Under the pieces are notes generated by a model. That model saw only the letters and a list, made by a program, of their open reading frames with translations, made no database searches and was not told the DNA's origin. From positions 1 to 64,000 of the forward strand of contig JABLXR010000019.1 of NCBI GenBank assembly GCA_013178015.1: DNA of 64,000 nucleotides, given 5' to 3'. This stretch comes from Anaerolineae bacterium (lineage in GTDB: Bacteria > Chloroflexota > Anaerolineae > DRVO01). Numbering within the stretch: position 1 is the first letter of the stretch; each line of letters starts with the position of its first letter. The position numbers and the translations under genes are program-made. Positions 12,394-61,243 of the stretch are shown piece by piece.

Positions 12394-12438
12394 CAGTCCT
12401 CAGTTTGTGTCCATTATGCCTACTGCAAAACCGCCACA

Positions 12439-13410
12439 CTAGGCAGCCCTGGCTCGCGAGGCTGGCATCTCGTAGTACACCCACTTCCCGGACGTGTAGA
12501 ACTGCACCAGGGTAAAGGCCATGATGATGAAGAAGAGAACCCAAGCCAGGGCGCACGCGTACCCCATCTCGAAGTAACGGAAGGCACTCTCGTACAGGTA
12601 GAGGACGTAGAACAGCGTTGAGTTGACTGGGCCCCCGTTGGTCATGACGTAGGCCGAGGTGAAGACTTGGAATGAGCCTATGACCCCCATGATGAGGTTG
12701 AAGAAGATCGTAGGTGTGATCAGCGGCACGGTCACGAAGCGGATCTTGTGCCACCAACTGGCCCCGTCCACCATGGCAGCCTCGTACATCTCCTGTGGCA
12801 CCCCCTGCAGGCCCGCCAGGAAGATGACCATCTGGCCACCGATGCCCCACATACTCATGAGAACCAGTGCCGGCTTCGACCAGTTGGGATCCATTAGCCA
12901 GACTGGTCCTTGGATGCCGACCCAGCCCAGCACCACGTTCACTAGCCCAAGGTTGGGGTCGAACAGCCAGAGCCAGAGCATGGACACGGCCACCCCTGAC
13001 ACCACCGAGGGCATGTAGTAGATGGTACGTAAGACGTTCTCCCCTGGCAGCCCCTGATTCAGCAAGATGGCAACGGTGAGAGCAAGGATCATAGACAACG
13101 GGACATGCAGGACGGTGTAGTACATGGTGTTATACAGGACGGTGAAGTACCTGGGATCCTCGAAGAACATCACCCGGAAGTTGTCCAGTCCCACGAAGCG
13201 GGGTGGCTGCAACACGCTGTAGTCCGTCAGGCTGAAGTAGACCGAGGCCAGCATTGGGCCCAGGGTGAGGGTGAAGAAGCCGACTATCCACGGGGCAGCC
13301 ATGACGTTGCCCCAGAACTGCCGGGCGAGTCGCGGAGTGGCGAGGCGGGAGGAAAAGCCGGCTTGCCTTCCAAGACTTCGACCGGTTGCGCTCACGGTAG
13401 CCTCGTCCAC
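12439..13410 (-). CDS. Carbohydrate ABC transporter permease, MalF type
   Basis: A 323-residue CUT1 permease. After a ~35-residue cytoplasmic N-terminus there are six helices (WIVGFFTLTLGPMLASVYFSL first) and the loop KFVGLDNF/RFVGLDNF typical of MalF/UgpA proteins without the large periplasmic insert. The EAA loop reads YEAAMVDGASWWHKIRFVTVPL. It lies between the binding-protein gene (98 bases upstream) and the MalG-type gene. Together they form an importer for a sugar or oligosaccharide, presumably the substrate of the sulfatases and deacetylase-like proteins in the same operon. Confidence 0.93.
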   Translation of the reverse strand: MDEATVSATGRSLGRQAGFSSRLATPRLARQFWGNVMAAPWIVGFFTLTLGPMLASVYFSLTDYSVLQPPRFVGLDNFRVMFFEDPRYFTVLYNTMYYTVLHVPLSMILALTVAILLNQGLPGENVLRTIYYMPSVVSGVAVSMLWLWLFDPNLGLVNVVLGWVGIQGPVWLMDPNWSKPALVLMSMWGIGGQMVIFLAGLQGVPQEMYEAAMVDGASWWHKIRFVTVPLITPTIFFNLIMGVIGSFQVFTSAYVMTNGGPVNSTLFYVLYLYESAFRYFEMGYACALAWVLFFIIMAFTLVQFYTSGKWVYYEMPASRARAA

Positions 13411-43371: not shown

Positions 43372-43708
43372 TCCTTGCCCCTGGCTTCGCCGCGAGAGGC
43401 CCCGCCCCACGATTGGAGCGGCCTCTAGGCCGACATTAATGGCCTCTTTATGACCTGAGGGCCACTCTTGTACTAGATGGTAGCCGACGCTGTCCGGTGC
43501 AGTGTTGGAGTAGGAGCTGCGGCCCATCACCCGATCCGGAACAGCATGGAAGCACCCGAGCGTCTGGCCACTCCCTTCCCCGCTCATACCTCTCGCCCAA
43601 CACGGGCTAGTTGATGGAGGCGCCTATGAAGTGAGATGAGCGCATGCGTCGTGCCGCAAGCGCTAGAGGGACAGGTGGTTAGTGTGAGTAGTTGGAGTGG
43701 AGGTTCGT

Positions 43709-46093
43709 ATGCACAACGACTCTGGCCTTCGCCCGTCCCGCAGAGTCGGAAGTACGCCTAGGGGCAAGACCCCGCTATCGTTACGCGTCAGAGTGCTTCT
43801 GGGCCTGGTAGTGGCCCTATCGCTTGTATCCGTGATGTCGGCGTTCGCCGCGTCGGTGGAGCCGACGCTCCTCCCGGGAGCAGCAAACACCGACAAGACC
43901 TGTGCCCTGGTCATGCCGGGCACTACCGAGCTCAAGATCGAACCGGTACCTGATGGCAGTTATCTTGCTAGCGATGGCCTGCTTACCGTCAGTATAGTCA
44001 AGCCGAGCACGCTGGCGGGATCCCTGAACAGCTTCGACTGGACCTCGAACGTCCTGGTCGAGGGCGTGATCGTCAAGAACGGCGTTGACGGCGCGAACTG
44101 GTACAACTACAGCCCCGCCGGCAGCATGGGCGACACTTATCTCACCACACCGTCCTATGGCAACAAGGAGATCAGCCACATCTCCTTCTGCTATTACCCC
44201 AGACTGACCGCCGCCAAGACGGCCGTCACCGAGTACACCCGCACCTATAGCTGGACCATCGACAAGAGCGTGGACCCTGCCGCGCACGTGGGGTTTGCCG
44301 GGGACAGCTTCGTCTCCGACTATGAGGTGACGGTCGACCTGACAGTTGTCGACTCGGACTTCAGGGTGACGGGCGAGATCACCATCAACAACCCCACCCC
44401 GTTTGAGGTCGGCTTCGAGGTCACCGACTCGGTCAATGGCACGGCGGCTGTCGTCGACTGCGACCCCGAAACCGCCGGAAATCAGGCGTCCGGCACGCTG
44501 CCGGCGGGCGGAAGCGACGTCTGCACCTATGTGGCAGAGCTGGGCGATGAGCTTCCCGCAGACGGTACCAACACCGCCACTGTGACCAGCCTGAACCCGA
44601 GTGTTCTGGGCGCCGTCGCCACGGAGGACTATGCCTTCGGTGACCCGACCACGGTCGAGGGCTACGCTAAGATCAACGTCACCGACTACTTCGACGGCGA
44701 CCTGGTCGGCGATCCCCTAGGGTCAGCTACAGACGACTTCACCTTTGAGTACGACCGCAGCTTCGCCTGCCCCACCGACGAGGCCTGGTATGAGGACGGC
44801 GTCTACACGGACTCCTTCCCCAACACCGCCGAGATCGATGAGACGGAGGACTCTGCCGACGCCAACGTCGACCTCACCTGCTATCTGATCGACGTCACCA
44901 AGGACGCCGACACCTCCTTGACCCGCACTTGGGAGTGGGACATCGAGAAGACAGGCGACCAGACCGAACTCACCCTCTCCGTGGGTCAGCAGTTCCCGGT
45001 CAACTACACGGTCACGGTCAGCGCCATCTTCGAGGACACCGACCATGCGGTCAGCGGCAACATCTGGGTGTACAACCCGGCTCCCATGGCGGCCACGATC
45101 AACGACGTGTCGGACGTGATCTCCCCCGACATCGACGCCACGGTGGATTGTGGGGTGACCTTCCCCTACAGCCTGGCGGCGGGTGACACCCTGCAGTGCA
45201 CCTACGAGGCAGACCTGCCGGACGCGGAGGCTCGAACCAACACGGCCACCGCCACCCTGCAGAACTTCGCCTATGACAGCGAGGGGATCGGCACGCCGTC
45301 CGGCACGACCGACTTCAGTGGCACGGCGGACGTGGACTTCAGCGACGCCACGGTCACGGAGATCGATGAGTGCATCGATGTCTCTGACAGCATCTACGGC
45401 GATCTTGGCACTGTCTGCGCGGCCGATCTAGATGAAGAGACGTACGACTTCGAGCTCAAGTACAGCCTCTACGTCGGCCCGTACGATGTGTGCGGTCAGT
45501 ACGAGTTCACCAACTGCGCCGACTTCGTGACCAACGATACCGGGACCACAGGCCAGGCATGCCACACTGTCACGGTGGATGTGCCCTGTGAGGGCTGCAC
45601 CCTCACCCCCGGCTACTGGAAGACGCACTCCGAGTTCGGCCCCGCGCCTTACGATGACACCTGGGCCATGCTCCCCAACGGAGCCAGCACCCCGTTCTTC
45701 CTGAGCGGGCAGACCTACCACCAGGTGCTGTGGACCCCACCCCAAGGTGGCAACGCCTACTACATCCTGGCGCACGCTTACATCGCCGCAGAGCTGAACC
45801 TGCTCAACGGCTCCTCCTCCACGCCGGAAGTGGACGCAGCGCTGGCGCAGGCGGAGACCTGGTTCTCCACCTACACGCCGGCCCAAGTGGCCGCTCTGAA
45901 GGGCAAGGCGGGCAATGACCTTCGCGCTCAGATGATCGCCAAGGCCTACCTGCTCGATCAGTACAACAACGGCTACATCGGCCCCGGTCACTGCTCGGAG
46001 GACCCCAGTAACTTCATCGTCTACTTGGGCTCAGGACTTGGGGGCTCGCAGGTAGAGGCCGCTTTCCTCCCTCTAGTGCTGTACCGCCGGTAG
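43709..46093 (+). CDS. Large secreted repeat protein with GYWKTH-type domain
   Basis: A 794-residue exported protein. A basic N-terminus and hydrophobic stretch (VRVLLGLVVALSLVSVMSAF, about 28-47) form a signal peptide cleaved near AFA-AS. The body is Asp/Thr-rich with at least two similar beta modules: YTRTYSWTIDKSVD...VTVDLTVVDSDFRVTGEITINNPTPF and LTRTWEWDIEKTGD...YTVTVSAIFEDTDHAVSGNIWVYNPAPM. CTLTPGYWKTHSEFGP near residue 630 starts a domain seen in diverse secreted bacterial proteins. The end, AAFLPLVLYRR, resembles C-termini of Anaerolineae exported proteins. ATG at 43709 follows GGAGG. It is probably cell-surface or matrix; no enzyme motif. Confidence 0.8.
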   Translation: MHNDSGLRPSRRVGSTPRGKTPLSLRVRVLLGLVVALSLVSVMSAFAASVEPTLLPGAANTDKTCALVMPGTTELKIEPVPDGSYLASDGLLTVSIVKPSTLAGSLNSFDWTSNVLVEGVIVKNGVDGANWYNYSPAGSMGDTYLTTPSYGNKEISHISFCYYPRLTAAKTAVTEYTRTYSWTIDKSVDPAAHVGFAGDSFVSDYEVTVDLTVVDSDFRVTGEITINNPTPFEVGFEVTDSVNGTAAVVDCDPETAGNQASGTLPAGGSDVCTYVAELGDELPADGTNTATVTSLNPSVLGAVATEDYAFGDPTTVEGYAKINVTDYFDGDLVGDPLGSATDDFTFEYDRSFACPTDEAWYEDGVYTDSFPNTAEIDETEDSADANVDLTCYLIDVTKDADTSLTRTWEWDIEKTGDQTELTLSVGQQFPVNYTVTVSAIFEDTDHAVSGNIWVYNPAPMAATINDVSDVISPDIDATVDCGVTFPYSLAAGDTLQCTYEADLPDAEARTNTATATLQNFAYDSEGIGTPSGTTDFSGTADVDFSDATVTEIDECIDVSDSIYGDLGTVCAADLDEETYDFELKYSLYVGPYDVCGQYEFTNCADFVTNDTGTTGQACHTVTVDVPCEGCTLTPGYWKTHSEFGPAPYDDTWAMLPNGASTPFFLSGQTYHQVLWTPPQGGNAYYILAHAYIAAELNLLNGSSSTPEVDAALAQAETWFSTYTPAQVAALKGKAGNDLRAQMIAKAYLLDQYNNGYIGPGHCSEDPSNFIVYLGSGLGGSQVEAAFLPLVLYRR

Positions 46094-46764: not shown

Positions 46765-48228
46765 TTAAGCACACTGGATGTCCGGCAGCGCCTCTGTATA
46801 CTCCATGTCCATCAAGCTCAGTTGACGGCGTATGGTTCCCCGCATATCCCTAGCCGGGCCCAGACAGTGCCGCTCGAAGGTATCCGAAGCTATTGCCCCT
46901 GCCATGGGAGCGTGGGGGAACAGAAGCTTCAGCCAGGCAGTCGACATCCGCTTGATGGCTTCCGTATCACGCGTGTCCGCTCCCCTCGGCACATGAAGAC
47001 GCTCATCCACCAGTGCTCTGTAGCGGAGATCACCCCTCAAAGCATGTAGAATCTCCGACAGATACTCCACGTTGAGCCCCCAGCCCGAAGCCTTCATGTC
47101 CTCGCGCATCCTGGGGATGTGCCAGCCGCGAATGAACCCGTGGAAGCGGTCTATGAGGGCCGATTCCTGAAAGGCGTTTGGCAGCGCACTGAGCATGTAG
47201 GCATGATCGTTCATCACTTGGCTGTCAATGTTCCCCAGAAGCACGATCCCAGCCTCACCGAGACCGCGGTAGTCCGCTATCCGGTACTCGCCACTCTCTA
47301 GGTAACCCTTCAGCGCCCCCCGCACCTCGTCTTCGTCGCTGAAGCTGATACTCTGTACCTCGTCCAGAGCCACGTAGTCGCAGCGGCTGACTAGGCCCGG
47401 AATCCGTCTTCGCTTGTCGTAGAACAGGCTCACACGGCCAACGCTCCCGCCACTTACCAGCCATCCGTGTTTGCTAATCTGGGAGAAGACCGTGGATTTC
47501 CCCGTTCCCTTGGGCGCCAGCTCGATGAGGTTGAGCCGTCTCTCTGCGAACGGCAGCAGCCGGCCTAGCAGCGTGAGCTTCTCCCTCAGGTTGAGGAATG
47601 CCAGCGGGTTATAGTCAATTCCCATGAGCAGCACATCGACCCACTCGGTGAGGGTGAACTCCTGCCGAGCCTCTTGGTAGAACTCAACCTCCACCCGGTA
47701 GGGTCGGAAAGGCTTGAAGTCCACCAGGATCACCCGGCCCTCTGCTGGTCTGCCCTGGAGACTGTGAAATCGCCACTCCAACTCCACCACACCCCAAGTC
47801 TCGGCTGCCCCCAGCAGCTCCTCCTGCCGCTCCTTGCTGCTCACCAGCCTGGAATCCACCAGGGCATCGGTACGACGCGACGGGAATCCGAAGTCGGGCA
47901 GGCTGAAGAATGCTTCACCCGTCCTCACGTCCAGCTCAACCCGAAGCTTGGTCAGAAAGCGTACGGGCTGCCCTTCGTTGACCATCCGGCTCTTGAGAAG
48001 CTCCCACTGATCGCGACCAGGCATGTACTGCCGTACGTAAGCCTGGACCTCATCGCTATCCAGTGTCCCGTCTGGATCGGCAAGTCGCATAACCAGCCAG
48101 TCGCGCAGGTACGACGGAACACCGAGGGCAGAGAAGTACTTGTAGCGCCCGGGATCCTTGAATACTACCATGTCGGCGAAAACGTCTCTCACCTTGGCCG
48201 CCAGGCCCTCCGCAGCTGGCTTAGCCAC
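46765..48228 (-). CDS. brxL: BrxL-like AAA+ ATPase of BREX (short form)
   Basis: A 487-residue ATPase. After a ~230-residue N-terminal domain come Walker A APKGTGKST (about 238-246), SKHGWLVSGGSVGRVSLFYD, Walker B DYVALDEVQSI (about 284-294) and LIDRFHGFIRGWHIPRM, all matching the BrxL/TIGR02688 group. E. coli-type BrxL is ~680 residues and has a Lon-like C-terminal domain; this protein stops right after the ATPase. It may be a natural short form or may be cut by the adjoining IS256 remnant. GTG at 48228 overlaps the pglZ end by eight bases. BrxL is needed for BREX phage restriction, probably by acting on DNA. Confidence 0.85.
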   Translation of the reverse strand: MAKPAAEGLAAKVRDVFADMVVFKDPGRYKYFSALGVPSYLRDWLVMRLADPDGTLDSDEVQAYVRQYMPGRDQWELLKSRMVNEGQPVRFLTKLRVELDVRTGEAFFSLPDFGFPSRRTDALVDSRLVSSKERQEELLGAAETWGVVELEWRFHSLQGRPAEGRVILVDFKPFRPYRVEVEFYQEARQEFTLTEWVDVLLMGIDYNPLAFLNLREKLTLLGRLLPFAERRLNLIELAPKGTGKSTVFSQISKHGWLVSGGSVGRVSLFYDKRRRIPGLVSRCDYVALDEVQSISFSDEDEVRGALKGYLESGEYRIADYRGLGEAGIVLLGNIDSQVMNDHAYMLSALPNAFQESALIDRFHGFIRGWHIPRMREDMKASGWGLNVEYLSEILHALRGDLRYRALVDERLHVPRGADTRDTEAIKRMSTAWLKLLFPHAPMAGAIASDTFERHCLGPARDMRGTIRRQLSLMDMEYTEALPDIQCA

Positions 48229-50506
48229 TCCACACCCCCTGCAGCCCCATGTCGTCCTCTGCTATGCCGCGGCGTACCTCGAACTCCACCTGGCCTGGGC
48301 TCTGGCCAGGTGATTCCAGCCTTCCCTTGTAGTGACCTGCCCTTAATCTCGACACATCGAAAGCCCAGCGGTCTCTGCCCGTGCGGCTGCCCTTCAGCCA
48401 GTGCCCAGCAACCACGAGCCGCAACTCCTCCAGGGGCAAGCTAGTGACGGTCTCAAGGTGCCCTTCTCCGCGAGCACTGACTCGCACCGTCGGGGATAGC
48501 ACCTTGAACGTGACCGGCAGGCGGACGAGCTCTGGCCCAGCGCGCTGGACGAGAATGACGGGCACGAGGCACTCTTCATACGTTGCGCCACCGTGCACCT
48601 CTCCTCGGTTACTGCCACCGCCACTGAAGCGACCGTGAACCGCCAGGTGCGCCCATCCATCGTAGAAGAGGCAGCAATCCGTCAGTGCCCTCCGGTGACA
48701 CTCACCACCTGCGATGTCGGCATACCGACCCCAGTGGTGCACGCGCCATTCCCTCGGTGCCGCCACTGGCTGCCCGTCTGCGCCAAACCTGGTGAGGCCA
48801 TGGTCTGCAGTCAGCAGCGCAGTCTCCCCGGGGTCCAAGGTGGACGCGAGCTCGTGGCACACCGAGCTGATGAACTCCAGCTGCCGTACCAGGGAGTCGG
48901 GATATCGGTAGTCGTAGGAGTGCGCTTCTTTGTCCATGTCTCGTGGTGGCCGCTCCTCTTCACCCCACTCCCTGTTGTGCTCGGTCGTTGACGGCAGATT
49001 GGCTCGGGCGACGTGGACACGCACCTGATGCCCTCTACGCACCAGCAGTTCGCTCATCAGTCCCGCCCACTCGAGACCCACGGCGTCTAGCCACACAATC
49101 TTGGCACCGCCTGGACACGCAGCCTTGATCGTCTCTGCGCGAGTGGGAAACTCCCACAGAGCCTTCCGCTCGGCGGCTGCTGTGGCCATCGCCACCAGCC
49201 CTGGGAGAAGACGGTCACACACTCGGGACCGAGCGTACAAGCGGAAGTATTTCATCACCTCAGGGTGATCAGGATACGGATAGGCAGTAAGGTAGATCGC
49301 CAGCTCTGGGTAACAGACTTCGAGCACCGGAAGCCAGACGTCTTCGCTCACCTCTGTCTCCAGCAGCTCCGCTGTAGCCAGCACTGCCTCCCGTTTCTCT
49401 CGCTCGGAGAGGCCTGACAGCGCGCGCAATCGCTTCAGGGGTGTCTGCAGCGTTCGGAACCCCTGCCAGAAAGACGATGGTGGCTGGTCAACCCCCAGGT
49501 GCTCCAGTAGCTGCCGCCGCTCGCGAAGGTGCCCGAAGCTGAGGTTCCGGCCCAATGCCGCTGTAGCCGCTACCTGTGGAAGCGCCTCAGCACTCTGGCT
49601 CTCCTCGAGCACCAGCCCGTAGTACGAATCGCGCGGAGCCTCAAGCTTGCTCCACACCCAGAGCAGCCAACGCGCTTCGGGCTCCAGGTCAAGCCACTGC
49701 CCAAGCAGACGGTCGGGATCGTACTTCACCACATTCAGCTGACGGGCGGCGAGGGTAGAAACGCTGTCGTGCTGGTGGGCCTGTTCCACCAGCCAGCGCC
49801 ACTGGTCTTCCGTACCCCAGTCACTCGCGGCTGAGTCCAGTCCGGCGATCTCCTGACACGCCTGGGCAAAGGCGCTTGTGTACACCGTGATCGCAACTCG
49901 ACCTGCCCTACCTGATAGCACCTGCGGTCGGCTCGTCACTAGGCATCCGTCTGCCATCTCCCCACGTTCCCACCTTCGGAAGTACTCCCGCAACCCGGGG
50001 ATAGAATGAGGTCGGCGCCATTGCGGCACGCTGGCAGACACGCTGATGCTGATCTCGCCGGTGCCAACCAAGCGCCATCCCGGGTGTAGGGCCCCGGCCA
50101 GGTACCGATCCATCCTGGCCACTGTCTCCCCAAAGAGGTCCTCTACCTCCAACAGCGGCACGTAGATCCTCTGATGCCCGGGCTTCTCTAGTTGGGCCAA
50201 CTGGCTGAGCAGAGAGGAGCTGGCAGGATGGAGACGGAGCGCTTCTGCCACAGGCAGAACCACAGCGCGAGGTACCTCTTGGCTCCTGGCCAACGCCAGG
50301 ACCTTGGGCAGATACGGCAGCACATCCTCTGACTCGCAGAGCGACGACAAGTCTATGCAGGCATCCATCTGGGCTCGCAGAGCCGGGATCAGCTCACGCC
50401 AGGCATTGACACCCGTCACCAGGATGAACCGGACTGGGAACCGGGTGTAGCTCACAGCCTCATAAGACACCTCTGTGAGCAGCGTCTCCACGTCGTGGAC
50501 AGTCAT
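48221..50506 (-). CDS. pglZ: BREX phosphatase-like protein PglZ
   Basis: A 761-residue protein of the PglZ family, the one component found in nearly all BREX types. The alkaline-phosphatase-like core is in the C-terminal half: KIVWLDAVGLEWAGL with Asp474 and LLTADHGLTRFG with Asp568-His569 as probable metal ligands, then RHxHWGRYAD and HGGATYEECLVPV. The N-terminal half is helical and variable. ATG at 50506 overlaps the brxC stop as ATGA, so the two are translationally coupled; an upstream in-frame start would lie deep in brxC. PglZ from other systems binds zinc and has nuclease or phosphodiesterase activity. Confidence 0.9.
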   Translation of the reverse strand: MTVHDVETLLTEVSYEAVSYTRFPVRFILVTGVNAWRELIPALRAQMDACIDLSSLCESEDVLPYLPKVLALARSQEVPRAVVLPVAEALRLHPASSSLLSQLAQLEKPGHQRIYVPLLEVEDLFGETVARMDRYLAGALHPGWRLVGTGEISISVSASVPQWRRPHSIPGLREYFRRWERGEMADGCLVTSRPQVLSGRAGRVAITVYTSAFAQACQEIAGLDSAASDWGTEDQWRWLVEQAHQHDSVSTLAARQLNVVKYDPDRLLGQWLDLEPEARWLLWVWSKLEAPRDSYYGLVLEESQSAEALPQVAATAALGRNLSFGHLRERRQLLEHLGVDQPPSSFWQGFRTLQTPLKRLRALSGLSEREKREAVLATAELLETEVSEDVWLPVLEVCYPELAIYLTAYPYPDHPEVMKYFRLYARSRVCDRLLPGLVAMATAAAERKALWEFPTRAETIKAACPGGAKIVWLDAVGLEWAGLMSELLVRRGHQVRVHVARANLPSTTEHNREWGEEERPPRDMDKEAHSYDYRYPDSLVRQLEFISSVCHELASTLDPGETALLTADHGLTRFGADGQPVAAPREWRVHHWGRYADIAGGECHRRALTDCCLFYDGWAHLAVHGRFSGGGSNRGEVHGGATYEECLVPVILVQRAGPELVRLPVTFKVLSPTVRVSARGEGHLETVTSLPLEELRLVVAGHWLKGSRTGRDRWAFDVSRLRAGHYKGRLESPGQSPGQVEFEVRRGIAEDDMGLQGVWSG

Positions 50507-53500
50507 GGATGCGGCTCCGTGCCTGCCAGTAACCTCAGCCCTACCGACGGATCCTCGGCCAGGACCTGGAGCTGTCGCCGGGCGTCTGTCTCCGACATGC
50601 TGCTGATGTAGTCCAGCACTCTCTGGTACAATCGCTCCCTGTAGGAGGCAGCCACCCATTCCTTCGCCACGGACCGGGCCCTATCCCGCGTCCAGCGCCC
50701 CACATCGCGCCCCAGCCGCATCCGGATATGGTCGTGCATTTTGGCTACGTCCGACTCAGTTAGCACTCCATCGTACTCAGGGACTAGCGCCAAGAGCGCG
50801 TCAGTCACGGGGGTACCACTGCCCAAAGCCTGTAGCGCCCCACCCTGAGCATCCAGATAAGCCAACAGATCTCCGAGGCTGGATTCGCTCTGACCACTCG
50901 GGTCGTTCAACCGTCCCAGCATCTCGAGAGCCGCAGGAGAGTCGAGCAGCCACTGGATCGGCAGCCCGCGAGCCTCACTCCAGGCCCGCGGGGATGCGCT
51001 GCCTGTCAGACGCTGCCAAGTTGCCACTGCTTCCGCTGCCAGACGGTTGCGGTGGAGTTCGCCTGCCTGACGCAGCACCTCCTGGCGCAGGTCGGCCGGC
51101 GGGCGGTCGCTCATGTCGGGCAGTCTCTGCCACACATCGTAGCCATCGGAATCACTGAGGGTGATCTCGGCAATGCGATCAGCCCACCGGACCAGCGCTG
51201 CCTGCGGCCCATCGAGCGCACGCCTGACTGACTCGCGCCTGGCGTTCAGCTCCTCTGCCAGCGTGCCCAGCCCTCCTGCTGCCTCTTTCGGATCCAGGAT
51301 CGTCGCCAGTTTCTGCAGCACTCTGGCTGTGCTGTCATCGGAACCAGCCGCCAACACGGCAAGTGGCAGCTTACTCCCCCTGACTCTGCCACGAAGTCGG
51401 TCCAGAGCGGTGACCAAGTTCCTGTCGTGGACGCCCAACAGGTCGTTGAGGGCTTTCAGCAGCTTCAGGCGCCCGGCCGCTTCCGGGAGCCGCTCACGGA
51501 TCTGCTCCTCTCGCCAGAGCCACACTTCCTCATGCATCACCGCCTTGAGCTGGGCCACGACCTCATCGAGTTCCAGTCCGAGGGCCTTCGCTTCTTCCAG
51601 CACCCCAGGCTCCGCCTCCTCAAGGAACCGCAGCATGTTGGTACTGAGATGCGAGGAGGACAGACCTGCCTGGATGGCCTCGGCGTGAGGGGTAACCGCT
51701 TCCACAAATCGGCGCAGAACCTCGCCCTCTAGGGCCTGAGCAGACTCGTTCGTGTCTCGGAGAAGCTCTTCCAGGGCGACAACTGCCTGGCGCAGCGGTG
51801 GACCGTCGTCCAGTCTGAGCAGCCAAATCGGATATCCGATCCTCTTGAGCGCCTCCCGCGCTGCGCGCCGGGCAGTGTCGGGATAGTCAGCCTCTCCCGC
51901 CGGCAAGGAGAATAGGGTAGATACCAGCTGGCAGAAGTCCTGGGCTTCGCGCGTCATGGCGCAAACTGTGGCGTTGCTCTTGCCCTTCATGACGCCGTCA
52001 ATCAACTCAGCCAACTTGCTGGGGTTTAGAGGGAATGTGCTGATGCCGTCTGCCCAGAAGTGACCGTCACAGTAGTCTCGAAGCAACAACCCCATGAGGA
52101 CGATGCCCATAGGCGAGGGCATGAGGCCAATCGGTTCGTCTTGAAGTCTGCCCCACAACTGGCGAAGGCTGACGCCGTTGCTCTGAGCGAAGGCTGCGTC
52201 CACGACTTGCTGCATCTTGCTGAGGGGATGCTCGGGTTGGCGCTGAATGCTAGCCCGGTAGGTCGAGGGATCCCAGAGCCCAAGCCGCTGCAGGTCGTTC
52301 ACGAAATCCCGGTATGGGTTGTTCTTGGGGCGCTCGGCCCCCAGGCTGATGCTTGCACCCTTTCGCCCAAACGTATCCCTGTGCAGTGTGCTTACCGGAG
52401 AGATGAGCTCGGGCCGGTACCGATAGACCGAAGCGATGACCCGACGGAGGAAGGCCCCGTACCCACTGGCACCGCTCGCAATCTCTTCCATCTCGCGGAA
52501 GAAGACACGCAAGCTCTGCTTCGCTAGCTCCTGCCCCCAGCCTTCTAGCAGCCGCTTAGCCCTATCGGCGTGAACGGTGGCGTTAGCGGTGTCGCGGATC
52601 TCCTGGTAGTAGAGCTCGTGAGCGCGCTGCTCGCGCCAGTCCTCCCAGCGTTGCCGACCAAATGGTACTTGGCTGACGGCGATTAGGCCGCGGGGCAAGT
52701 CCCTGGCCAAGCTTCTTGACAACTGCTCCGCGCTGCGCACTTCCTCGTCGTCCTGGCTCACGATGAGCACAGCGGCTATCTGGTAGGGCTCCACTCTCGG
52801 CGAAAACACCCTCTCTCGCCGTTTCAGGAACTCAGCGGCTGAGGCAACGGTCAGCGCCTGCCGCCTTGCAGCCACATCGTCGGAGACACTGAACCACCTC
52901 AGTGCCTCATCGGCGATGAGGGCCTCGCCCCTGGCGTGCTGTTGCACCAACTGCTCGAACCGAGGCAGGCCTTCCTTTAGCCCCCGGACTCGGACATGGT
53001 CCACGCTGCTGGCAGCAATGGTGTATTCCTTCTCCGGGCCAGGGAGCTGCCGCACGACATCCTGATGCACCAGGGACTCGATCGTGGCCATGGCCTCAGC
53101 TTCTTTCCGGGTGCCCACCAGCATCAGCAGTACGTTCTTCTGTCTAGGTAACAGCCGAGGGTCCACCTGCCCCATTTGTCGCTCCAGGGCGATCAAAAGG
53201 AGGACAGCCCGCAGGGCCTGCCGTTCCCGGTCACCCAGGTTGGCAGAGCGAGAACGGTAATAGGAGACAATGTCTCGTACCTTGTCCGCCAGCTCTAGGT
53301 TCTCGTCCAGGAAGAAGTAGTCCCAGAGTGCGTCTGCCGTCAGCCAGGCCGGCTCCGTGTCCACATCCTGGCGCAGGAAGCGGGGGAATGATCCCAGTGG
53401 ATCCTCCTGTCCCTTCTCTCCCCTCAGCCAGCGGAACAGGGTGCGCTCACTCGAGCTGAACTCCCGCGAGATCGTTGACAGCAGGAACGCCGCATAGGGA

Positions 53501-54639
53501 TGGATGGGCACGAGTGCCTTGAAGTCCTCTCGTCGCTCCCCTTCCCGCGCCGCAGTCACCAACATCTTCGCGGCTGCGGCCACCCAGCCCCACATGGCTT
53601 CCCGTCTGCTTTCCCATTCCTCCTGGCGCTGGGGGTTGACGTTGATTGCCCCTGCCATGAGGTGGTACGCGGTCACCGTAGCCATCTGATAGGGGATCAC
53701 GGTGAACCGGTCGAGCAGACGTCTCCAATCCGCCTGATCTCCGTACTGGCGGGCCACTTCCGGGGCCTTGTGAGTGATCAGGAACAGATAGAACGGTTCG
53801 CTGGCGGACAGATGGGCCAGCTCCTGGAGGGTGGTGGTAGACGGATTCTGACGGAAGTACTCGGTGAACTCATCCCAGATGAAGAGGATGGACTTCAGCT
53901 GGGCAGCCTCGATCACTTCGCCTAGCCAAGCCTTCACCGCCTCGGGATCGCCCAGGACCATGTAACCTTCCTCAGACATGACCTGGTGCACCCGCGCCAG
54001 CAACTCGGCGTTCTCCTCATTGTCTACCCCGGTTCGTAGCCGGCGTATCACCCCGTCCGCGTCGGAGAAGTCAGGGAAGGTTGACTCATGGCGACGAAAA
54101 GCGGCCTGCCAGTTGAAGGAACTGTCAGGTCCATCCAGCTTTTCCAGCACCGCCTGGTACAACGTAGGGGTCATGGGGAGCTCGTATCCCCGCGCCAGCA
54201 GCGCCTGCCGCACACCCTCCTGGACCTGCCCCAAAAGGGTGAAGCTGTTTGTCACATGGGCGGACCCGGAGCGGTATGCCACGAGGTGATCGCCCTGCTC
54301 TCGGGCTGCCAAGAGCCGCCGCTCGAGATCGCCCTGCTCCCGAAAGGCTCTCTGGGTCGCCAGGTAGGATCTGACCTCGTCCAGGTCATCCTCCAGCAGG
54401 TGCTTGAGCACGAAGGCGGCGAAGGTCTTGCCGGTCCCGTAGGCACCGTGGAGCAGCAGCGGACGCCGGTCGCTGGCTGTACCGCGCTCCAGGGCCCTCA
54501 GCAGGTGGTCAAGGGTTTTGAGCCAGTCGGCGTGCGGTATGAAGGACCTCCAGGCGTTGGTATCGCGACGATCCACTTCCTGGCTGAAGATGGGCTCGAA
54601 GTCCTGGTTGACCGAGATGTAGTCAGCATAGATCGGCAT
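50503..54639 (-). CDS. brxC: BREX large ATPase BrxC
   Basis: A 1378-residue protein, the size expected for BrxC/PglY. It begins MPIYADYISVNQDFEPIFSQEVD and has Walker A LLLHGAYGTGKTF (about 61-73) and Walker B SILFIWDEFTEYF (about 250-262), followed by LFLITHKAPEV. The long C-terminal region is helical with several Leu/Glu/Arg stretches and no other recognisable enzyme motif. BrxC is essential for BREX DNA modification and phage exclusion and probably forms a large complex with the other subunits. It overlaps pglZ by four bases and lies 30 bases after the DUF4007 gene. Confidence 0.93.
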   Translation of the reverse strand: MPIYADYISVNQDFEPIFSQEVDRRDTNAWRSFIPHADWLKTLDHLLRALERGTASDRRPLLLHGAYGTGKTFAAFVLKHLLEDDLDEVRSYLATQRAFREQGDLERRLLAAREQGDHLVAYRSGSAHVTNSFTLLGQVQEGVRQALLARGYELPMTPTLYQAVLEKLDGPDSSFNWQAAFRRHESTFPDFSDADGVIRRLRTGVDNEENAELLARVHQVMSEEGYMVLGDPEAVKAWLGEVIEAAQLKSILFIWDEFTEYFRQNPSTTTLQELAHLSASEPFYLFLITHKAPEVARQYGDQADWRRLLDRFTVIPYQMATVTAYHLMAGAINVNPQRQEEWESRREAMWGWVAAAAKMLVTAAREGERREDFKALVPIHPYAAFLLSTISREFSSSERTLFRWLRGEKGQEDPLGSFPRFLRQDVDTEPAWLTADALWDYFFLDENLELADKVRDIVSYYRSRSANLGDRERQALRAVLLLIALERQMGQVDPRLLPRQKNVLLMLVGTRKEAEAMATIESLVHQDVVRQLPGPEKEYTIAASSVDHVRVRGLKEGLPRFEQLVQQHARGEALIADEALRWFSVSDDVAARRQALTVASAAEFLKRRERVFSPRVEPYQIAAVLIVSQDDEEVRSAEQLSRSLARDLPRGLIAVSQVPFGRQRWEDWREQRAHELYYQEIRDTANATVHADRAKRLLEGWGQELAKQSLRVFFREMEEIASGASGYGAFLRRVIASVYRYRPELISPVSTLHRDTFGRKGASISLGAERPKNNPYRDFVNDLQRLGLWDPSTYRASIQRQPEHPLSKMQQVVDAAFAQSNGVSLRQLWGRLQDEPIGLMPSPMGIVLMGLLLRDYCDGHFWADGISTFPLNPSKLAELIDGVMKGKSNATVCAMTREAQDFCQLVSTLFSLPAGEADYPDTARRAAREALKRIGYPIWLLRLDDGPPLRQAVVALEELLRDTNESAQALEGEVLRRFVEAVTPHAEAIQAGLSSSHLSTNMLRFLEEAEPGVLEEAKALGLELDEVVAQLKAVMHEEVWLWREEQIRERLPEAAGRLKLLKALNDLLGVHDRNLVTALDRLRGRVRGSKLPLAVLAAGSDDSTARVLQKLATILDPKEAAGGLGTLAEELNARRESVRRALDGPQAALVRWADRIAEITLSDSDGYDVWQRLPDMSDRPPADLRQEVLRQAGELHRNRLAAEAVATWQRLTGSASPRAWSEARGLPIQWLLDSPAALEMLGRLNDPSGQSESSLGDLLAYLDAQGGALQALGSGTPVTDALLALVPEYDGVLTESDVAKMHDHIRMRLGRDVGRWTRDRARSVAKEWVAASYRERLYQRVLDYISSMSETDARRQLQVLAEDPSVGLRLLAGTEPHP

Positions 54640-54669: not shown

Positions 54670-55353
54670 TCAGTTCGCCATCTCGTATCGTCCCCATGGT
54701 TGACACAGCGTGGCGAGCGTAATCAGTGCATCGTCTCGATCACATCCAAAGATGATCCAGGGCCAGGTAAGGTCCTCGTCCAGCCCTAGTGTCATCCTGC
54801 CCTGGCCTTGGCCCAGTCTGACGCTGGCGTACAGAAGCGCACCGGGGGAGGGATTTGAAAGGCCCCAGCGCTTGACCAAGCGTGGGCTTCCGGGGAACAC
54901 CTCGCCCTGACCCAACTCCCGGCCGATAGGTGTTCGCTCCAGAAGACCGACCAGCTCAAGGATGGCGTCATAACAAGTCCTGTAGGAAAGCGCAGGATGG
55001 AACCCTTGCAGTGCCTTAGCCAGTTCTATGGTCGTCTGCTGGGTGCTTGGGGAACACTGACGCACATACCAGTGGGCTGTGGCAAACCCCAGGGCGCAGT
55101 GTGCCCAGAGCAGCTGCCAGACTAGGCTATCGTCTGGCCCAGCAGCTCGAGCATGGGCGCAGAGGAAAGTCTCGCGTCCGTTCGAATCCAGAAGGCCAGT
55201 TGTCCGTAACCACCTGGCTAGCGCATCCACCTGCTTGTTGCCGAGGTGTCCTTGGTCCATCCAATCATCCGGACGTTCCAGATAGAGCTGCACCCACTCC
55301 CGCCTCAAGCCGAACGTCCGATGCACTGACCATCCCTTGTCGTAGACGGTCAT
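54670..55353 (-). CDS. DUF4007-family protein
   Basis: A 227-residue protein beginning MTVYDKGWSVHRTFGLRREWVQLYL and GHLGNKQVDALARWLRTTGLL, which matches the DUF4007 domain (FxLRxGWLxK..., LGVGxxMVxAIRxWL pattern). DUF4007 proteins are encoded beside PAPS-reductase-like genes in phosphorothioation (Dnd/Ssp) and BREX type 4 loci; their activity is not established. The C-terminal half of the upstream BrxP-like protein carries a second copy of the same kind of domain (IGRISTYQTFGMRLSWLKEFME, GNRQIEAMRAWLREAELI). It overlaps that gene's stop by four bases, so the two are coupled. Confidence 0.82.
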   Translation of the reverse strand: MTVYDKGWSVHRTFGLRREWVQLYLERPDDWMDQGHLGNKQVDALARWLRTTGLLDSNGRETFLCAHARAAGPDDSLVWQLLWAHCALGFATAHWYVRQCSPSTQQTTIELAKALQGFHPALSYRTCYDAILELVGLLERTPIGRELGQGEVFPGSPRLVKRWGLSNPSPGALLYASVRLGQGQGRMTLGLDEDLTWPWIIFGCDRDDALITLATLCQPWGRYEMAN

Positions 55354-57650
55354 TGAGGCAGATCCAGCACATCGCTAGACGTTTTTCCGCTGTCCATATG
55401 GATGTTATCTAAGTCCCTCGTGAGTTCGACGGATATCCAGTCCGGCCACAATGATGACATGCCCCGCAGAAGTCTGCTTAGCAGGTCCACATCTAACCCG
55501 AAGACTGCATGGGGGCCCTCTACCGCTCCGTCTAGGAGTTCCGATAAGGTGATCCTGTGTCTACCCATACGTTCAGCATATCGGTACAGCGAGTAGAGGA
55601 CCGCATGCCCGCTTGGTGACCGCCATCCCAGCTTGTGCACTCTGGGACCTCTTTCTTTGTCTGAGAGCACTTCGCCAGCCCCGATGCTCCCCAGAGGGGT
55701 GGCGCGTAGCGTTCCGAGGAGAGCCGTTGCCGCATTCTCGCGAGTCCGCTCACTTGCGCCTGCGGGCATATGCTCGATGAGCTCTCGCCTGGACCAGTTG
55801 CCTCCCCAGGGCACGTCCGTCGTGTACCATGCTATAAGTGAGGAGTTTCTTACCAGATTGCACCAGATCACGCTCCATGTAATGGGAGACTCCGGACCGA
55901 ACCGGCTCAGCTTACCGACAAGCTCTGTGATGTGAAGGGCACTGCCCCTAATGAGTTCCGCTTCCCGTAGCCAGGCCCTCATCGCTTCGATCTGTCGATT
56001 GCCCAGATCACTGCTGCCCCACCATGACTCTCGCTTCTCCATGAACTCCTTTAGCCAGGACAGCCTCATTCCGAAGGTCTGGTAGGTACTGATTCGTCCC
56101 ATCCTCCCGCCCCCATTAGTGGTGCCGAGTGACTTAGCTGCCCAGCAGCCCTTCTCTGTGAGCTTCAGACATTGGTAGCAGTGACAACATAGCGCCTCAT
56201 TGACATGGACTCTATCTCCCATCGAGAGGGCCCCTGTAGGGCATTCCACCGCGCACCCACGGCAGTGAGTGCAGTATGCTGTCTTGTAGACGGTGGCGCG
56301 AATGTAGCTCTTGAGGACGCGGTAGTCCGCCTCGATGCCGCTCAATTGCACGGTCAGGCTGTCACTGCTGCGATGAATCTGATAACGGCAGTGCTTGTCT
56401 TCCATTCTGATCACGCCCTGAGCCCTGTCCTCGAGGCTGATGCTGCCCAACACCTTAGCCCACTCAAGCCAGTTCTCAGATGGATGCCGAAGGACGAATG
56501 TCAAGGTGCCATCTTGCTCGTGTTCCGCGACTCGAAGACCCCCTGCCTCAATGTCTCGCCCGCCTGATCTGACCTTCCATTGGCCTTGATTCACGTACTC
56601 CTCAGCTCTTTCGGGTGCTAGTCCTGAACTCGCCGCGCAGTCGTACAAGATAGCTGTCAGGGCACTAACATCGTCAGGACAGGCCATGCTGAGAACCGCT
56701 TCGCTCCAGCTTGAGCCGAAGGGGCACACACTGCAGCCTACACGGCCCAGCCCGTACCGGTATCCAGTATTCAGAGGCAGGTCACGTTGCAGAATGTATA
56801 GGAGCGTTTGCAGGGGGCCCCACTGCAGGATGGGACTCACATTCACCTGCGTGGCGTGCTTGCCGCCTACCGATATCTCTCCGTACTGTGAGCGCCTCTG
56901 GCTCTCAGCGGCTCTCACTCCGTCGAATACCAGCGCAGATACCGTCGGTTTGCCCACCAGCTCTCGCAGTAGCAGGAGGTTCGGAGCAGTCTTGTGTACC
57001 GTACAGCACCATCGCATGATCCGGCTCGGCGGCCCCAGCTCCCGCCAGGTCTGAGTGGCCGGCTTGTGCGACCGAGCGGTCAGGAACGTCAGCTCAGGAA
57101 ACCGTGCCTTCGCCCGCTCCACCGCTTCGTAAGTAGCACTGATTTCCATTGTGGTGTCGCTAAAGACGACCACGAACTGGTCCGGCGGCAGAGTCCGCTG
57201 CACCAGGTCCAGCACCACCAGAGAGTCCTTGCCGCCGCTGAAGGCCACGGTGGCAATATCCACTTTGTCGCGGTACTGATTGTAGGTACGGTCAATGAAC
57301 TCGATCGCCCGGTGGACCAGTCCGCTCATTATGTAAGCGTTCTTTCTCAACATCACCGGCACATCTGCCGGCTCCAACTGCAGGCCTTTCTCTTGAAACT
57401 CGATCTTCGGCTTCTCGAAGAAGCCTCCGCCCTTGGCTTCTGCCACCTGGCGGCCTCGGTAGTAGTAGCGCCGATCCACCGCCCAGAGCAGTGGCTCTTG
57501 TATTCGGTCGTACTGCCACTCGGTGTCGAACCCGAAAAGATCCAGTTCCTCGAAGAAGACAGGGCGCACCTCACCCTGGATGGCGCCGTCGTCCCCATCG
57601 GTGAGAAGGACACCTCCCGTCTCTTCGTCCCAGATGGTGCGGTAGCTCAC
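55350..57650 (-). CDS. brxP: BrxP-like PAPS-reductase/ferredoxin/DUF4007 fusion
   Basis: A 766-residue protein with four parts: an N-terminal ~120-residue domain; a PAPS-reductase-type PP-loop ATPase with SGGKDS at 138-143 (TVAFSGGKDSLVVLDL); cysteines at WCCTVHK (214-216) and GCSVCPFGSSW (306-309) that could bind Fe-S; a ferredoxin-like segment with CTHCRGCAVECPTGAL (460-470) and CCHCYQC; and a C-terminal DUF4007 domain from about 520. DndC/SspD-type relatives insert sulfur into DNA. BrxP takes the place of the methyltransferase in type 4 BREX, so sulfur-based DNA marking is an attractive inference. GTG at 57650 has GGGGGAG upstream; an earlier start at 57707 is possible. Confidence 0.87.
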   Translation of the reverse strand: MSYRTIWDEETGGVLLTDGDDGAIQGEVRPVFFEELDLFGFDTEWQYDRIQEPLLWAVDRRYYYRGRQVAEAKGGGFFEKPKIEFQEKGLQLEPADVPVMLRKNAYIMSGLVHRAIEFIDRTYNQYRDKVDIATVAFSGGKDSLVVLDLVQRTLPPDQFVVVFSDTTMEISATYEAVERAKARFPELTFLTARSHKPATQTWRELGPPSRIMRWCCTVHKTAPNLLLLRELVGKPTVSALVFDGVRAAESQRRSQYGEISVGGKHATQVNVSPILQWGPLQTLLYILQRDLPLNTGYRYGLGRVGCSVCPFGSSWSEAVLSMACPDDVSALTAILYDCAASSGLAPERAEEYVNQGQWKVRSGGRDIEAGGLRVAEHEQDGTLTFVLRHPSENWLEWAKVLGSISLEDRAQGVIRMEDKHCRYQIHRSSDSLTVQLSGIEADYRVLKSYIRATVYKTAYCTHCRGCAVECPTGALSMGDRVHVNEALCCHCYQCLKLTEKGCWAAKSLGTTNGGGRMGRISTYQTFGMRLSWLKEFMEKRESWWGSSDLGNRQIEAMRAWLREAELIRGSALHITELVGKLSRFGPESPITWSVIWCNLVRNSSLIAWYTTDVPWGGNWSRRELIEHMPAGASERTRENAATALLGTLRATPLGSIGAGEVLSDKERGPRVHKLGWRSPSGHAVLYSLYRYAERMGRHRITLSELLDGAVEGPHAVFGLDVDLLSRLLRGMSSLWPDWISVELTRDLDNIHMDSGKTSSDVLDLPQ

Positions 57651-57732
57651 CGCCACTCCCCCGTATCCGCTCGGATTTGCTCGCGCGGGCCTGTGGACGC
57701 GCGACACCCCATTAGGTGCCTTGTTCGTCCCG

Positions 57733-60156
57733 TCAACCTAGAGACGGTCTGGCGATTCCGATCTCGTGCTCTAGTAGGTACCTACCATCACCGAGAGCAC
57801 GAAACTCCTGCCGTCCCAGGGCGACCATCACTTCCTCATAGCCTGGAGACAACCCCAGCAGAGGCAACTGCGCCGCTATCTGCTCTGAGGTGAGGGCGCA
57901 GCCAGCCATCTCTAGGATCTGGCCGATGGCTTGGGCCAGCTCCTGGTGTGCATCCGCCCCTGGGGTGGGCGAGGTGCCTAAGTCCCGACCCTCTTTGGCC
58001 CACTCGCTCAGGGCATACATATCACCCAGAGCCGTGAACCTGGCCGTCTCAGACTCCAGAATGGCCCGTGCTGTCTCCGGAGTCAGGTGCTGGTCTGAAG
58101 GAAGCCTCCCATTTGCCTGGACCGTCAGCTCCTCCAAGCTCATCGGCCGGCAGTACGAACGCAGGGTAGCCAGGATGGCCCTGGACTGAGCTCCGACTAC
58201 CGCACGGCCACGTCTGGGCAGATCCATGAGCCCCCACTCAGTCAGGCCATAGGTACCTCGCTTGCCCACCCACGCGAAGTAGGACGGCTCGCTGCTGAGA
58301 CGAGCATGTACGCTCCTCGAGGCCATGGCCTGGTCTGGACCCAGATAGGCATTGACCTCGGCGGCAATCTCGCTGTAATGGGCTGGCTCGCCAATACGGC
58401 GCAGCGCCAGCGCTATCTGACGCGTGCGAGAGCGCACTCTCCCCTTCAGGTACCAGTCGCCCGTTCGAGGATCATGGCGTAAGCCCGGACAGGTGCGCAG
58501 ACACGCGGAGATGAAAGCGCCGTCCAAGTCAGTGCCCTGTTCGCCAGGCGCCTGGCATTCCCAGAGTCGCGTGATCAACTCGGTCCTGGACAGGCCAAGA
58601 GGGTGTTCCCAGAGCAGGTCCCGCAGCGCCTGCCACATCTGGCGCACCTGTGCCGGATCCCGCTCTCGGTGCACCCAGACTCCAAGCTTGCCATGCCAAC
58701 CCGGGAGGATGTCGGCCTCCGTAATCAGCCGTACTACTCCCGCTGGATCAATCGCACCTGGCCGCACTACCCGAGCTAGTGCTCTCGCCAGTCGCTGCGG
58801 GGTCATGACCCCTCCCGCCTCAGCTAGAACCTCCTGCAGGAGCAGGAGGAGCGGATCTCCGGCCTGCAAGTACACATGGTACCGTAGAACGCGGAGTGAC
58901 TTCGCCTGCAGTTGTCTGATCCGCTCTCGTGTAAGGCCCAGCTGGCGACCGATCTCCTCCAGAGTCTGTGACTCGCCTTGTAGACCCAGCCTAAGCCTGA
59001 GTATCCGAGTGTTGCGTTCACCCACAAAGCTCAGCCAAGCACCAACAATCTCTTCCAGTGTCTGTCGGCGCAGTGCCTCCCGCTGGAACGGGTTCAACTC
59101 TAGCCCGAGCGCCTCTCGCTCGAGAGCACCTTCATCCTGCGCCAAGAGCCATTCCGTGTAGAGCCGCAGCTGCTCATGGGCCTCCGGCTTGGAGTGGGGG
59201 TCTCCTACGGCACCATCCGCGAGCCGCTGTACTGTATGAATGCCTGAGGCGACCAGGCGGGCTGTCTCTTGAGCGTCTAGTCCGAGGCGTGATATGCCGA
59301 TCGCCAGCCCTGTGTGGACGGCTCTATACGCAGGCAGCGAGAGTGCTGAAGGCTCCCTAGGTTCATCCTGGCGCAGGTCGGGAGCGGGATCGCGGTCTCG
59401 ACCGAGCTGAAGGTACTCTGCCTGTTTCTGACGCACTTCCGCCAGAGACTTCCGGCCGAGGTTGCGGATGGACAGCAACTCGTCGTCACTCAGGACCTCA
59501 AGCTGCTCCACCGTCATCACCCGGGCTCTCATCAGGGCGTTCAGCGGCCGAGGCGACAGGTCCAGGCGATCTATGGGAGTGCCTGGCTCCTGCCCGGTGG
59601 GCTCGCCCGGTACGTTTGGGCTGCTGTCCTCTCCTAGGAGCGCCGCCAGCCTACCCAGTGCCTCCCTGGCCGAAAACACATCCAGGTAGCCGGTGTCGGT
59701 CAGGGCTTCCGCGGTCAGGCCCCTGAAGTGCCCGACCTGCGTGAGCCCCAGGCGAAGCAGCGCGAACTGGGTACCATCTGCCAGCCCCATCGCGTCAACG
59801 GGGGTATCGGCGATCTTGGCCCATGCCCCCTGGCCGGATTCGCACTCCCAACTGCTTGCGAACTGGCGTAGTCTGTCCCGCAGCTCTGAGAGGGACTTGG
59901 TCCCGAAGTTCCTGAGCTCAAGCAGCTCAGCGCAGGTTGCACTAGCCAGCTGGCCTACCGTCACCAGGTTGGCCCGTTCCAGGCAGTTCCGGGCACGGCG
60001 TGAGAGGCCCAGACACAAGACTGGCGCCGTGAGAGCCACGTCCGGCAAGCAGATCTGCAGCTCTTCAAGCAGAGTGGGCCAGGTGGTCGGCTCCTGCCAG
60101 TGTCGCTCCGTCTCCATACTTGCTTCCGTCTTCTTGAGGTCACCCAGGCACGTCAC
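57733..60156 (-). CDS. Composite transcription-machinery-like protein: alpha-CTD repeats, sigma region 4, HARE-type winged helices
   Basis: An 807-residue protein (GTG at 60156; ATG at 60117 also possible). Helix-hairpin-helix modules like the RNA polymerase alpha C-terminal domain lie at ~46-100 (ANLVTVGQL, LLELRNFGTKSLSELRDRL) and ~196-250 (LLSIRNLGRKSLAEVRQK), with degenerate copies near 125-175 and 283-315. Residues ~365-428 form a sigma-70 region 4 (RILRLRLGLQGESQTLEEI then LTRERIRQLQAKSLRVLR). Residues ~435-800 hold about five winged-helix units of HARE/RpoE-delta type, e.g. RRIGEPAHYSEIAAEVNAYL and RGTYGLTEWG. It has no catalytic motif. As first gene of the BREX operon, it may regulate transcription or recognise modified DNA. 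Confidence 0.78.
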   Translation of the reverse strand: MTCLGDLKKTEASMETERHWQEPTTWPTLLEELQICLPDVALTAPVLCLGLSRRARNCLERANLVTVGQLASATCAELLELRNFGTKSLSELRDRLRQFASSWECESGQGAWAKIADTPVDAMGLADGTQFALLRLGLTQVGHFRGLTAEALTDTGYLDVFSAREALGRLAALLGEDSSPNVPGEPTGQEPGTPIDRLDLSPRPLNALMRARVMTVEQLEVLSDDELLSIRNLGRKSLAEVRQKQAEYLQLGRDRDPAPDLRQDEPREPSALSLPAYRAVHTGLAIGISRLGLDAQETARLVASGIHTVQRLADGAVGDPHSKPEAHEQLRLYTEWLLAQDEGALEREALGLELNPFQREALRRQTLEEIVGAWLSFVGERNTRILRLRLGLQGESQTLEEIGRQLGLTRERIRQLQAKSLRVLRYHVYLQAGDPLLLLLQEVLAEAGGVMTPQRLARALARVVRPGAIDPAGVVRLITEADILPGWHGKLGVWVHRERDPAQVRQMWQALRDLLWEHPLGLSRTELITRLWECQAPGEQGTDLDGAFISACLRTCPGLRHDPRTGDWYLKGRVRSRTRQIALALRRIGEPAHYSEIAAEVNAYLGPDQAMASRSVHARLSSEPSYFAWVGKRGTYGLTEWGLMDLPRRGRAVVGAQSRAILATLRSYCRPMSLEELTVQANGRLPSDQHLTPETARAILESETARFTALGDMYALSEWAKEGRDLGTSPTPGADAHQELAQAIGQILEMAGCALTSEQIAAQLPLLGLSPGYEEVMVALGRQEFRALGDGRYLLEHEIGIARPSLG

Positions 60157-60194
60157 GGCGCGCGAAGACCGTGGGGCATGTCAGAACCGATCGC

Positions 60195-60228
60195 GCTCAT
60201 TCGCTTCTGTCATCTTAGGCGGATGAGC
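60195..60228. promoter_or_regulatory. Inverted repeat upstream of the BREX island
   Basis: GCTCATTCGC (60195-60204) and GCGGATGAGC (60219-60228) pair at nine of ten positions with a 14-base spacer, 39 bases upstream of the first island gene on the minus strand. An operator for the composite HTH protein is possible. I could not find a clear minus-strand -35/-10 pair. Confidence 0.45.
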
Positions 60229-61243
60229 GAATTTGACCGGTTGCAGCGCATGCGCCCACGGCCCGGACGCGTTGGCCCGCGGCTTGGTACACCTGAGATA
60301 GTCGCGGAAGCTCCCCCAATGCCCTAACCCATATGAGGCACCCGGCCAGGCGCCGATGCTCACGGCAACCCTCGGCACCTGCGGCGAGCCGTCTACTCGC
60401 CCAACGATCAAGCGCAGGCCACTGAGCTGCCAGGTCTCCAACAGACCTAGAGACGGGCCGACTGCGCCCCTTTCCGTGCCCATGCGTGCCGATGTGCCAT
60501 GCTAGCTAACTATCGGCCAAATGACAAGCGGCCTTGAGCCATAGTCGAGACTAAGACTTGACCTATGCTCACCCTCAGCCAGCCGGGCCATGGTGTTCAT
60601 CTGAGTGGAGTACGCATTGAAGGCCCGTGGCTCTGGACTTCGCAAGGATACGCACTTCAGCAGGCTACGGACGGCTTACGGACCCGCCGGATAGCTCTGC
60701 CCAAAGCGAACAGCGGTAACGGTCCGCAAGAGGGCGAGCCCAGGCATTCCAGGAAGAGTCGCCTGCTGGTCACCGAATGGTTACGGGAGGCGCTAGACGG
60801 CCGGGACGGCTTGGCAGGCCTAGACGCATGTCGGTCTGCTCTTGGTGGCAGAGGCCCGTTCTCGGAGCTCCGGCACGAGGTCGCACACTCCGACGCAGGA
60901 ACAGCGTACGCACTCAGGCGGCAAGATCAGGAAGGAGTACGGGCGACGTTGGAGGGCAGGAAGTGCGGGGAGGCCGCCACCAGTGGGCAGAGTGTAGCAG
61001 ATCAACTGGTGCACCTGCCCGTGGAACTGGTGGCATTCGAGGCTTCCCGCTCGCTGGAGATGGAACGGCGCGATGCCGGATCAGTGTCGTGGGGGCCATG
61101 GCCATCGCCAGCCCCTAACCAGACACTCACTCCACCCCAGACCCTGACCACCTTCGCTCCCTCATGCTGACACGCCTTAGCCGGCCCTCACCACCTACTC
61201 TCCAGAACCTGCAATCTACTCCCCACAACTCGTCCCCTGTGAC
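60229..61243. other. Gene-free interval of about 1 kb
   Basis: Open frames here (for example 60565-61170 on the plus strand) have low-complexity, antisense-like compositions, no ribosome site and no family resemblance. I see no repeats, tRNA or insertion sequence. It may be decayed sequence at the outer edge of the defence island. Confidence 0.5.

Follow-up and report, generated by a model that had tools for sequence, protein, structure and literature searches.

BREX systems are widespread, and to our knowledge it is largely unknown how they are switched on and what they sense. The window analyzed here, a 64,000-nt stretch of an Anaerolineae contig, contains a type 4 BREX operon that opens with a gene for an 807-residue protein, named M here, in which parts resembling the transcription machinery are strung together. 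What does such a protein do at the head of a defense operon? The reading that we tentatively prefer is that M is a DNA reader of the promoter-binding type, recruited to control its operon or to sense for it.

A sequence-only reading of the window had given the boundaries of the M gene correctly; as a correction, our ORF check put it on the minus strand, with a GTG start (Table 1). The same reading had M as the first gene of a co-directional run down to brxL, and this was borne out: M is followed on the same strand by brxP, an extra DUF4007 gene, brxC, pglZ and brxL, with 25 bp between M and brxP and later gaps or overlaps of −4, +30, −157 (with the annotated starts) and −8 bp. PADLOC and NCBIfam profiles identified BrxP (2.9e-265), BrxC (7.7e-173), PglZ (1.6e-128) and BrxL (8.3e-197), and the co-directional presence of these four, with a PglZ of the BREX-4 type, assigns the operon to BREX type 4. 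DUF4007 occurs twice, in the extra gene and inside BrxP, and the tripartite DNA-binding part appears to have been duplicated. Convergent with brxL lies a 798-aa ORF (43697-46093, plus strand), possibly a gene of the island, for which no match was found in Pfam, PADLOC or NCBIfam.

Table 1 Positions in the window of the M gene, its domains, the downstream BREX genes and the upstream palindrome.
Feature	Position	Strand	Remark
M, alpha-CTD / sigma-4 / winged-helix mosaic	57733..60156	-	first gene of operon
alpha-CTD 1, residues 44-97	59866..60027	-	DNA-contact positions R/N/C and G/K/S kept
alpha-CTD 2, residues ~194-247	59416..59577	-	DNA-contact positions R/N and G/K/S kept
sigma-70 region 4, residues 380-425	58882..59019	-	recognition helix TRERIRQ
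tri-helical HTH, residues 435-481	58714..58854	-	GGVMT motif common to PglW
winged helix 2, residues 501-570	58447..58656	-	AF2 model
winged helix 3, HARE-like, residues 577-638	58243..58428	-	most conserved block PAHYxxIA...GxxGLxEWG
winged helix 4, HARE-HTH, residues 656-716 (Pfam 665-719, sub-threshold in M)	58009..58191	-	
winged helix 5, residues 734-795	57772..57957	-	AF2 model
brxP, PAPS-reductase/4Fe-4S/DUF4007, predicted phosphorothioation enzyme	55350..57707	-	profiles
second DUF4007-like protein, BrxP C-terminal-like	54670..55353	-	BrxP profile 1.3e-27
brxC ATPase	50503..54639	-	7.7e-173
pglZ, BREX-4 type	48221..50659	-	NF033445 355 bits, cut-off 140
brxL	46765..48228	-	profile matches
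imperfect palindrome CGCTCATCCGC-N14-GCGAATGAGCG	60194..60229	-	37 bp upstream of M GTG start; candidate operator or leader hairpin

The domain composition of M largely agreed with what had been read from the letters. Pfam RNA_pol_A_CTD matched two stretches (whole-protein E = 3e-33), the first being the better match, and Sigma70_r4 matched above the cut-off (E = 1.1e-10); additional, more degenerate alpha-CTD-like stretches were seen by eye only at residues ~117-172 and 288-320. The claim of about five HARE-like winged helices held for the count, as one tri-helical unit and four winged helices, and in part for the family: the HARE-HTH profile stayed below threshold in M (17.9 bits, Pfam cut-off 25.9) and exceeded it at the aligned position in the three homologs L009, L010 and L011 (3.5e-9, 6.3e-11 and 6.8e-8, respectively). 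A catalytic domain, likewise absent from the earlier reading, was not found with Pfam, PADLOC or NCBIfam profiles. Sigma regions 1-3 and the alpha N-terminal domain are lacking, and M was ruled out as a sigma factor, since no Pfam or NCBIfam match to region 2, which would serve core binding and −10 melting, was obtained.

An AF2 model of M, built with six alignment rows, was usable for residues 355-800. Before residue 355 the full-length model was poor, with few or no aligned rows there, and the alpha-CTD assignment therefore rests on sequence profiles. In the usable part the model places the sigma-4 domain, the tri-helical HTH and then four winged helices with the order helix-helix-helix-strand-strand, the latter with pLDDT values of mostly 55-90. 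The modeled sigma-4 domain superposes on region 4 of Taq sigmaA (1rio_H) with a TM score of 0.93 at 0.8 Å and 50% identity; overall the two share ~45-52% identity over 54-64 residues. Foldseek searches with two M models gave no match at E ≤ 0.001, the sigma-4 part being matched at a probability of 1.00; the match of M to RNAP delta was weak (E 1.8).

The residues expected to touch DNA are well conserved. In the alignment, the equivalents of the −35-reading residues R586, R588 and Q589 are invariant in all eight M homologs, and those of R584 and E585 are kept in seven of the eight (K and Q in the remaining cases). T409, R410-R412, R414 and Q415 of M are invariant also when short CPR relatives are aligned, the core of the −35 recognition helix is kept in every M homolog examined, and the helix of M matches that of RpoD from the same genome. 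Both alpha-CTDs retain the equivalents of R265, N268, G296, K298 and S299 of RpoA, which we take to be the residues used to bind DNA. Judged from these alignments, the kept −35 helix and alpha-CTD contacts form the pattern that would be expected if M still binds promoter-type DNA. M thus resembles region 4 of RpoD/sigmaA and the C-terminal domain of RpoA in fold or profile and in DNA-contact residues, but it is neither a sigma factor nor an RNAP subunit. In the model it shares the winged-helix fold with HARE-HTH proteins (RNAP delta and restriction endonuclease fusions), and differs from them by its tandem array of four units, by the added sigma-4 and alpha-CTDs and by its own sub-threshold score. 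As in MzaA, the sigma-like protein of the MZA defense system, a sigma-4 domain is found in a defense operon; M scored 57.6 bits against the MzaA profile NF041931 (cut-off 800), over the sigma-4 residues 354-427 only.

An intact sigma-4 fold, −35 helix and set of alpha-CTD contacts, together with a HARE fold related to RNAP delta, would also suit a protein that engages RNAP or phage promoters, either as a decoy or sensor on −35/UP sites of incoming DNA or at the beta flap via sigma-4, and that detects or blocks phage transcription. We regard this as improbable, because binding to its own promoter would explain the conserved contact residues equally well and M carries no effector domain. Of the three roles offered by the sequence-only reading (switch, sensor, RNAP-engaging effector), that of an effector found no support. 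As a search with the M alignment was swamped by ordinary sigma factors, we turned to the C-terminal block (A2). Among viral contigs the alignment matched almost nothing but sigma-4 and A2 matched nothing, and phage records gave sigma-4 matches only, so that a phage origin of M is not supported.

Where else do such proteins occur? When 298 genomes of the class were searched with the whole protein, three homologs besides M were returned; a single-protein search of genome contigs with M gave no match. Two of the three (L010, 855 aa; L011, 747 aa) lead operons composed of genes for TGT, DUF4007, a small P-loop protein, a BrxC-like ATPase, PglZ and HerA, which is the gene content given for BREX-Related Capture (BRC) in the main text of PMC12839542. 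In L011, the M homolog has an SNF2-helicase-like gene just upstream of it and is separated from TGT by a 144-aa ORF. Plasmid pIAD-21 of Abditibacteriota (AP024153.1, 88508-102865) encodes a 568-aa relative annotated as rpoD, in which sigma-4 passes the cut-off and HARE does not, followed by an Eco57I/PglX/DrmMI-like methyltransferase, DUF4007, a P-loop protein, a BrxC/SspC ATPase, PglZ and BrxL. The parts of this plasmid operon are BREX-4-like, with methylation replacing phosphorothioation. M-type genes hence lead operons of three kinds, with chemically different modification enzymes (BrxP, TGT or an adenine methyltransferase), and in all four of these operons the modification enzyme is the next gene, with the 144-aa ORF intervening in L011.

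Two further loci illustrate the range of BRC-like operons. On a Haloplanus plasmid (L231), such an operon adjoins queC, queE and a 6-pyruvoyl-tetrahydropterin synthase gene, neighbors that fit a 7-deazaguanine DNA mark for TGT-type BRC systems. In G048 (L257), a BRC-type HerA operon follows DndA-like cysteine desulfurase, GIY-YIG-like and DGQHR/DndB-like genes, as recognized by eye, and this locus is possibly a phosphorothioation variant of BRC.

A larger relative of 1612 aa, in G379, heads an operon ending in a HerA ATPase (L206/L225). Its residues 37-164 match the phosphorothioate-reading sulfur-binding domain (SBD) 8h0l (E 8.8e-12). Of the ScoMcrA sulfur pocket they retain the histidine-lysine and the proline positions, with the tyrosine replaced by isoleucine (pocket residues from PMC6224610). 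The recurrence with BREX genes that the sequence-only reading had proposed to look for was thus found, in three kinds of modification-defense operon and in addition to this fusion. The operon partners of the SBD-M fusion were not identified by Pfam or BRC-profile comparison; several proteins of 323-547 aa fall below all Pfam cut-offs and stand beside a 1391-aa ATPase, in what is possibly an undescribed modification-sensing system.

Other relatives lie apart from defense genes. The third homolog of the class (L009) adjoins ABC-transporter-like genes on a contig of 6.4 kb, and L204, L205 and L250 adjoin housekeeping genes; at least these four are outside visible defense loci, as are short versions from CPR bacteria. 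The short sigma-4/HARE form, of ~350 aa, was found among CPR bacteria and also in two genomes of the class. G192 has two M pieces, located at contig ends (L248/L249) and one of them beside a DDE transposase; they resemble an interrupted gene, the tail piece lying ~0.9 kb upstream of the type I R-M genes HsdM and HsdS. A quick tree put the BREX-4, BRC and methyltransferase-BREX members into one loose group together with stand-alone members and the SBD fusion elsewhere, with weak deep support. M is therefore not a dedicated BREX part, given its relatives outside defense loci. That M is a stand-alone transcription factor located beside BREX by chance in this genome, as the stand-alone relatives and the short CPR forms might suggest, appears very improbable to us: the family repeatedly heads operons, of three kinds, in a sample where BREX-4 (2 of 400 genomes) and BRC (4 of 100) are rare, two of the three homologs first found lead BRC operons, and the spacing between M and BrxP is tight. 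The sequence-only reading had named homologs residing mostly outside defense loci as an outcome that would speak against it; several relatives are outside, and the leadership of defense operons is recurrent.

The association has clear limits. In what is a small sample, BrxP was present in two of 400 genomes of the phylum, that of the window, with M, and G529, without it, and the BRC-type ATPase was found in four of 100 genomes of the class, M leading the two TGT-type loci and being absent from the other two. A BREX-4 locus of Methanosphaera also has no M and carries an XRE-type HTH regulator and an ImmA/IrrE protease in the leader slot. M as a requirement for BREX-4 was ruled out by the G529 and Methanosphaera loci. 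In G529 (L209), an unrelated 828-aa gene (10456-12942, minus strand) with a weak match to ZorC (EH signature) overlaps brxP in the leader slot. M is absent from the closest sampled genomes, as expected of a mobile island. The association of M with modification-defense operons is recurrent and not obligatory.

The BREX-4 and BRC operons described in the main text of PMC12839542 have the same gene content as the M-led operons, but an M-like component is not listed there for either type, which fits the earlier statement that M is not a described BREX component; among openly readable papers combining the domain names of M with BREX, we found no other description. The closest likeness is to PglW of BREX-2 (NF033442), the C-terminal half of which contains an alpha-CTD, a sigma-4-like HTH and the GGVMT HTH in the same order as M. 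The alpha-CTDs of M and PglW align in hhalign at 93.5% (E 2.4e-7), and the sigma-4-like and GGVMT HTHs at a probability of 84-87% (E 4.5e-6). According to the main text of PMC12839542, this half of PglW comprises an alpha-CTD plus three winged HTHs, the first of which, from the sequence comparison, we infer to be sigma-4-derived. PglW has a NERD nuclease, kinases and a C-terminal iSTAND, all lacking in M, whereas it has no detectable HARE and has lost the −35-reading residues that M kept; against NF033442, M reached 63.9 bits (cut-off 990) over the DNA-binding part only. NF033442 matches in the phylum were ruled out as PglW, being kinase-domain matches whose neighbors resemble DndFGH genes. 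In four BREX-2 loci, PglW lies upstream of PglX as the first large BREX gene, preceded in two of them by a small HTH gene.

This likeness raises the possibility that M is a physical part of the BREX machinery and corresponds, as a separate protein, to the DNA-binding half of PglW; it would then guide the BrxC/PglZ complex and the modification enzyme to DNA and report the modification state. Such a role would be consistent with the gene order in operons of three kinds, where M is directly followed by the modification enzyme (again with the 144-aa ORF between in L011), with the leading position and domain order of PglW, and with the HerA-operon relative that is fused to a phosphorothioate reader. 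We nevertheless consider it somewhat unlikely, since M is missing from one of the two BREX-4 and two of the four BRC loci sampled in the phylum and class, respectively, is not in the BREX-4 core listed in the main text of PMC12839542 and is thus dispensable to the machinery, has kept the −35-reading residues that the PglW HTH lost, and has stand-alone relatives.

A role of M in control or sensing is favored by its place at the head of the operons in the window, L010, L011 and pIAD-21, by the ordinary regulators that fill its slot in the Methanosphaera locus, by relatives that stand alone as expected of a transcription factor, by the kept −35-reading and alpha-CTD contact residues, by the sulfur-binding domain fused to the G379 homolog in a HerA operon, by the lack of a catalytic domain and by the palindrome preceding the M start, which arises in ~2% of shuffles. 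Against it speak the size of M, since 807 aa with at least seven DNA-binding units is a great deal for a local regulator, and the similar array in PglW, an integral BREX-2 protein, which would point to a machinery part; moreover, the palindrome was not found upstream of other M homologs, the only promoter match upstream of M is a single weak one of the sigma-70 type, and the reading of modified DNA by HARE-type domains is a proposal from the literature. If M is a control or sensing protein, it would be a non-catalytic, multi-contact DNA reader drawn from a family of promoter-binding proteins of the sigma-4/HARE kind. Its two alpha-CTDs and sigma region 4 would contact promoter-type DNA at the UP and −35 elements, respectively, and the row of HARE-type winged helices may read the state of the neighboring DNA, for example whether it is modified. 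Bound at the promoter of its own operon, M could make the expression of both the modification enzyme and the restriction machinery depend on that signal; DNA binding, promoter choice and modification sensing are what we infer for M, which may activate or repress.

That relatives of M head other DNA-marking defense operons suggests a shared part for control or sensing. A broader and rather unlikely extension is that a common, previously unlisted component mimicking the transcription machinery serves phosphorothioation, 7-deazaguanine-type TGT and adenine methylation systems, fused into PglW in BREX-2, and that it would read promoters, possibly those of phages, together with the modification state and gate modification or attack. 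One family heading operons with three DNA marks, and with an architecture that recurs in PglW, points to a module for control or sensing that these systems have in common, and the likeness between M and PglW suggests a role for the uncharacterized C-terminal half of PglW.
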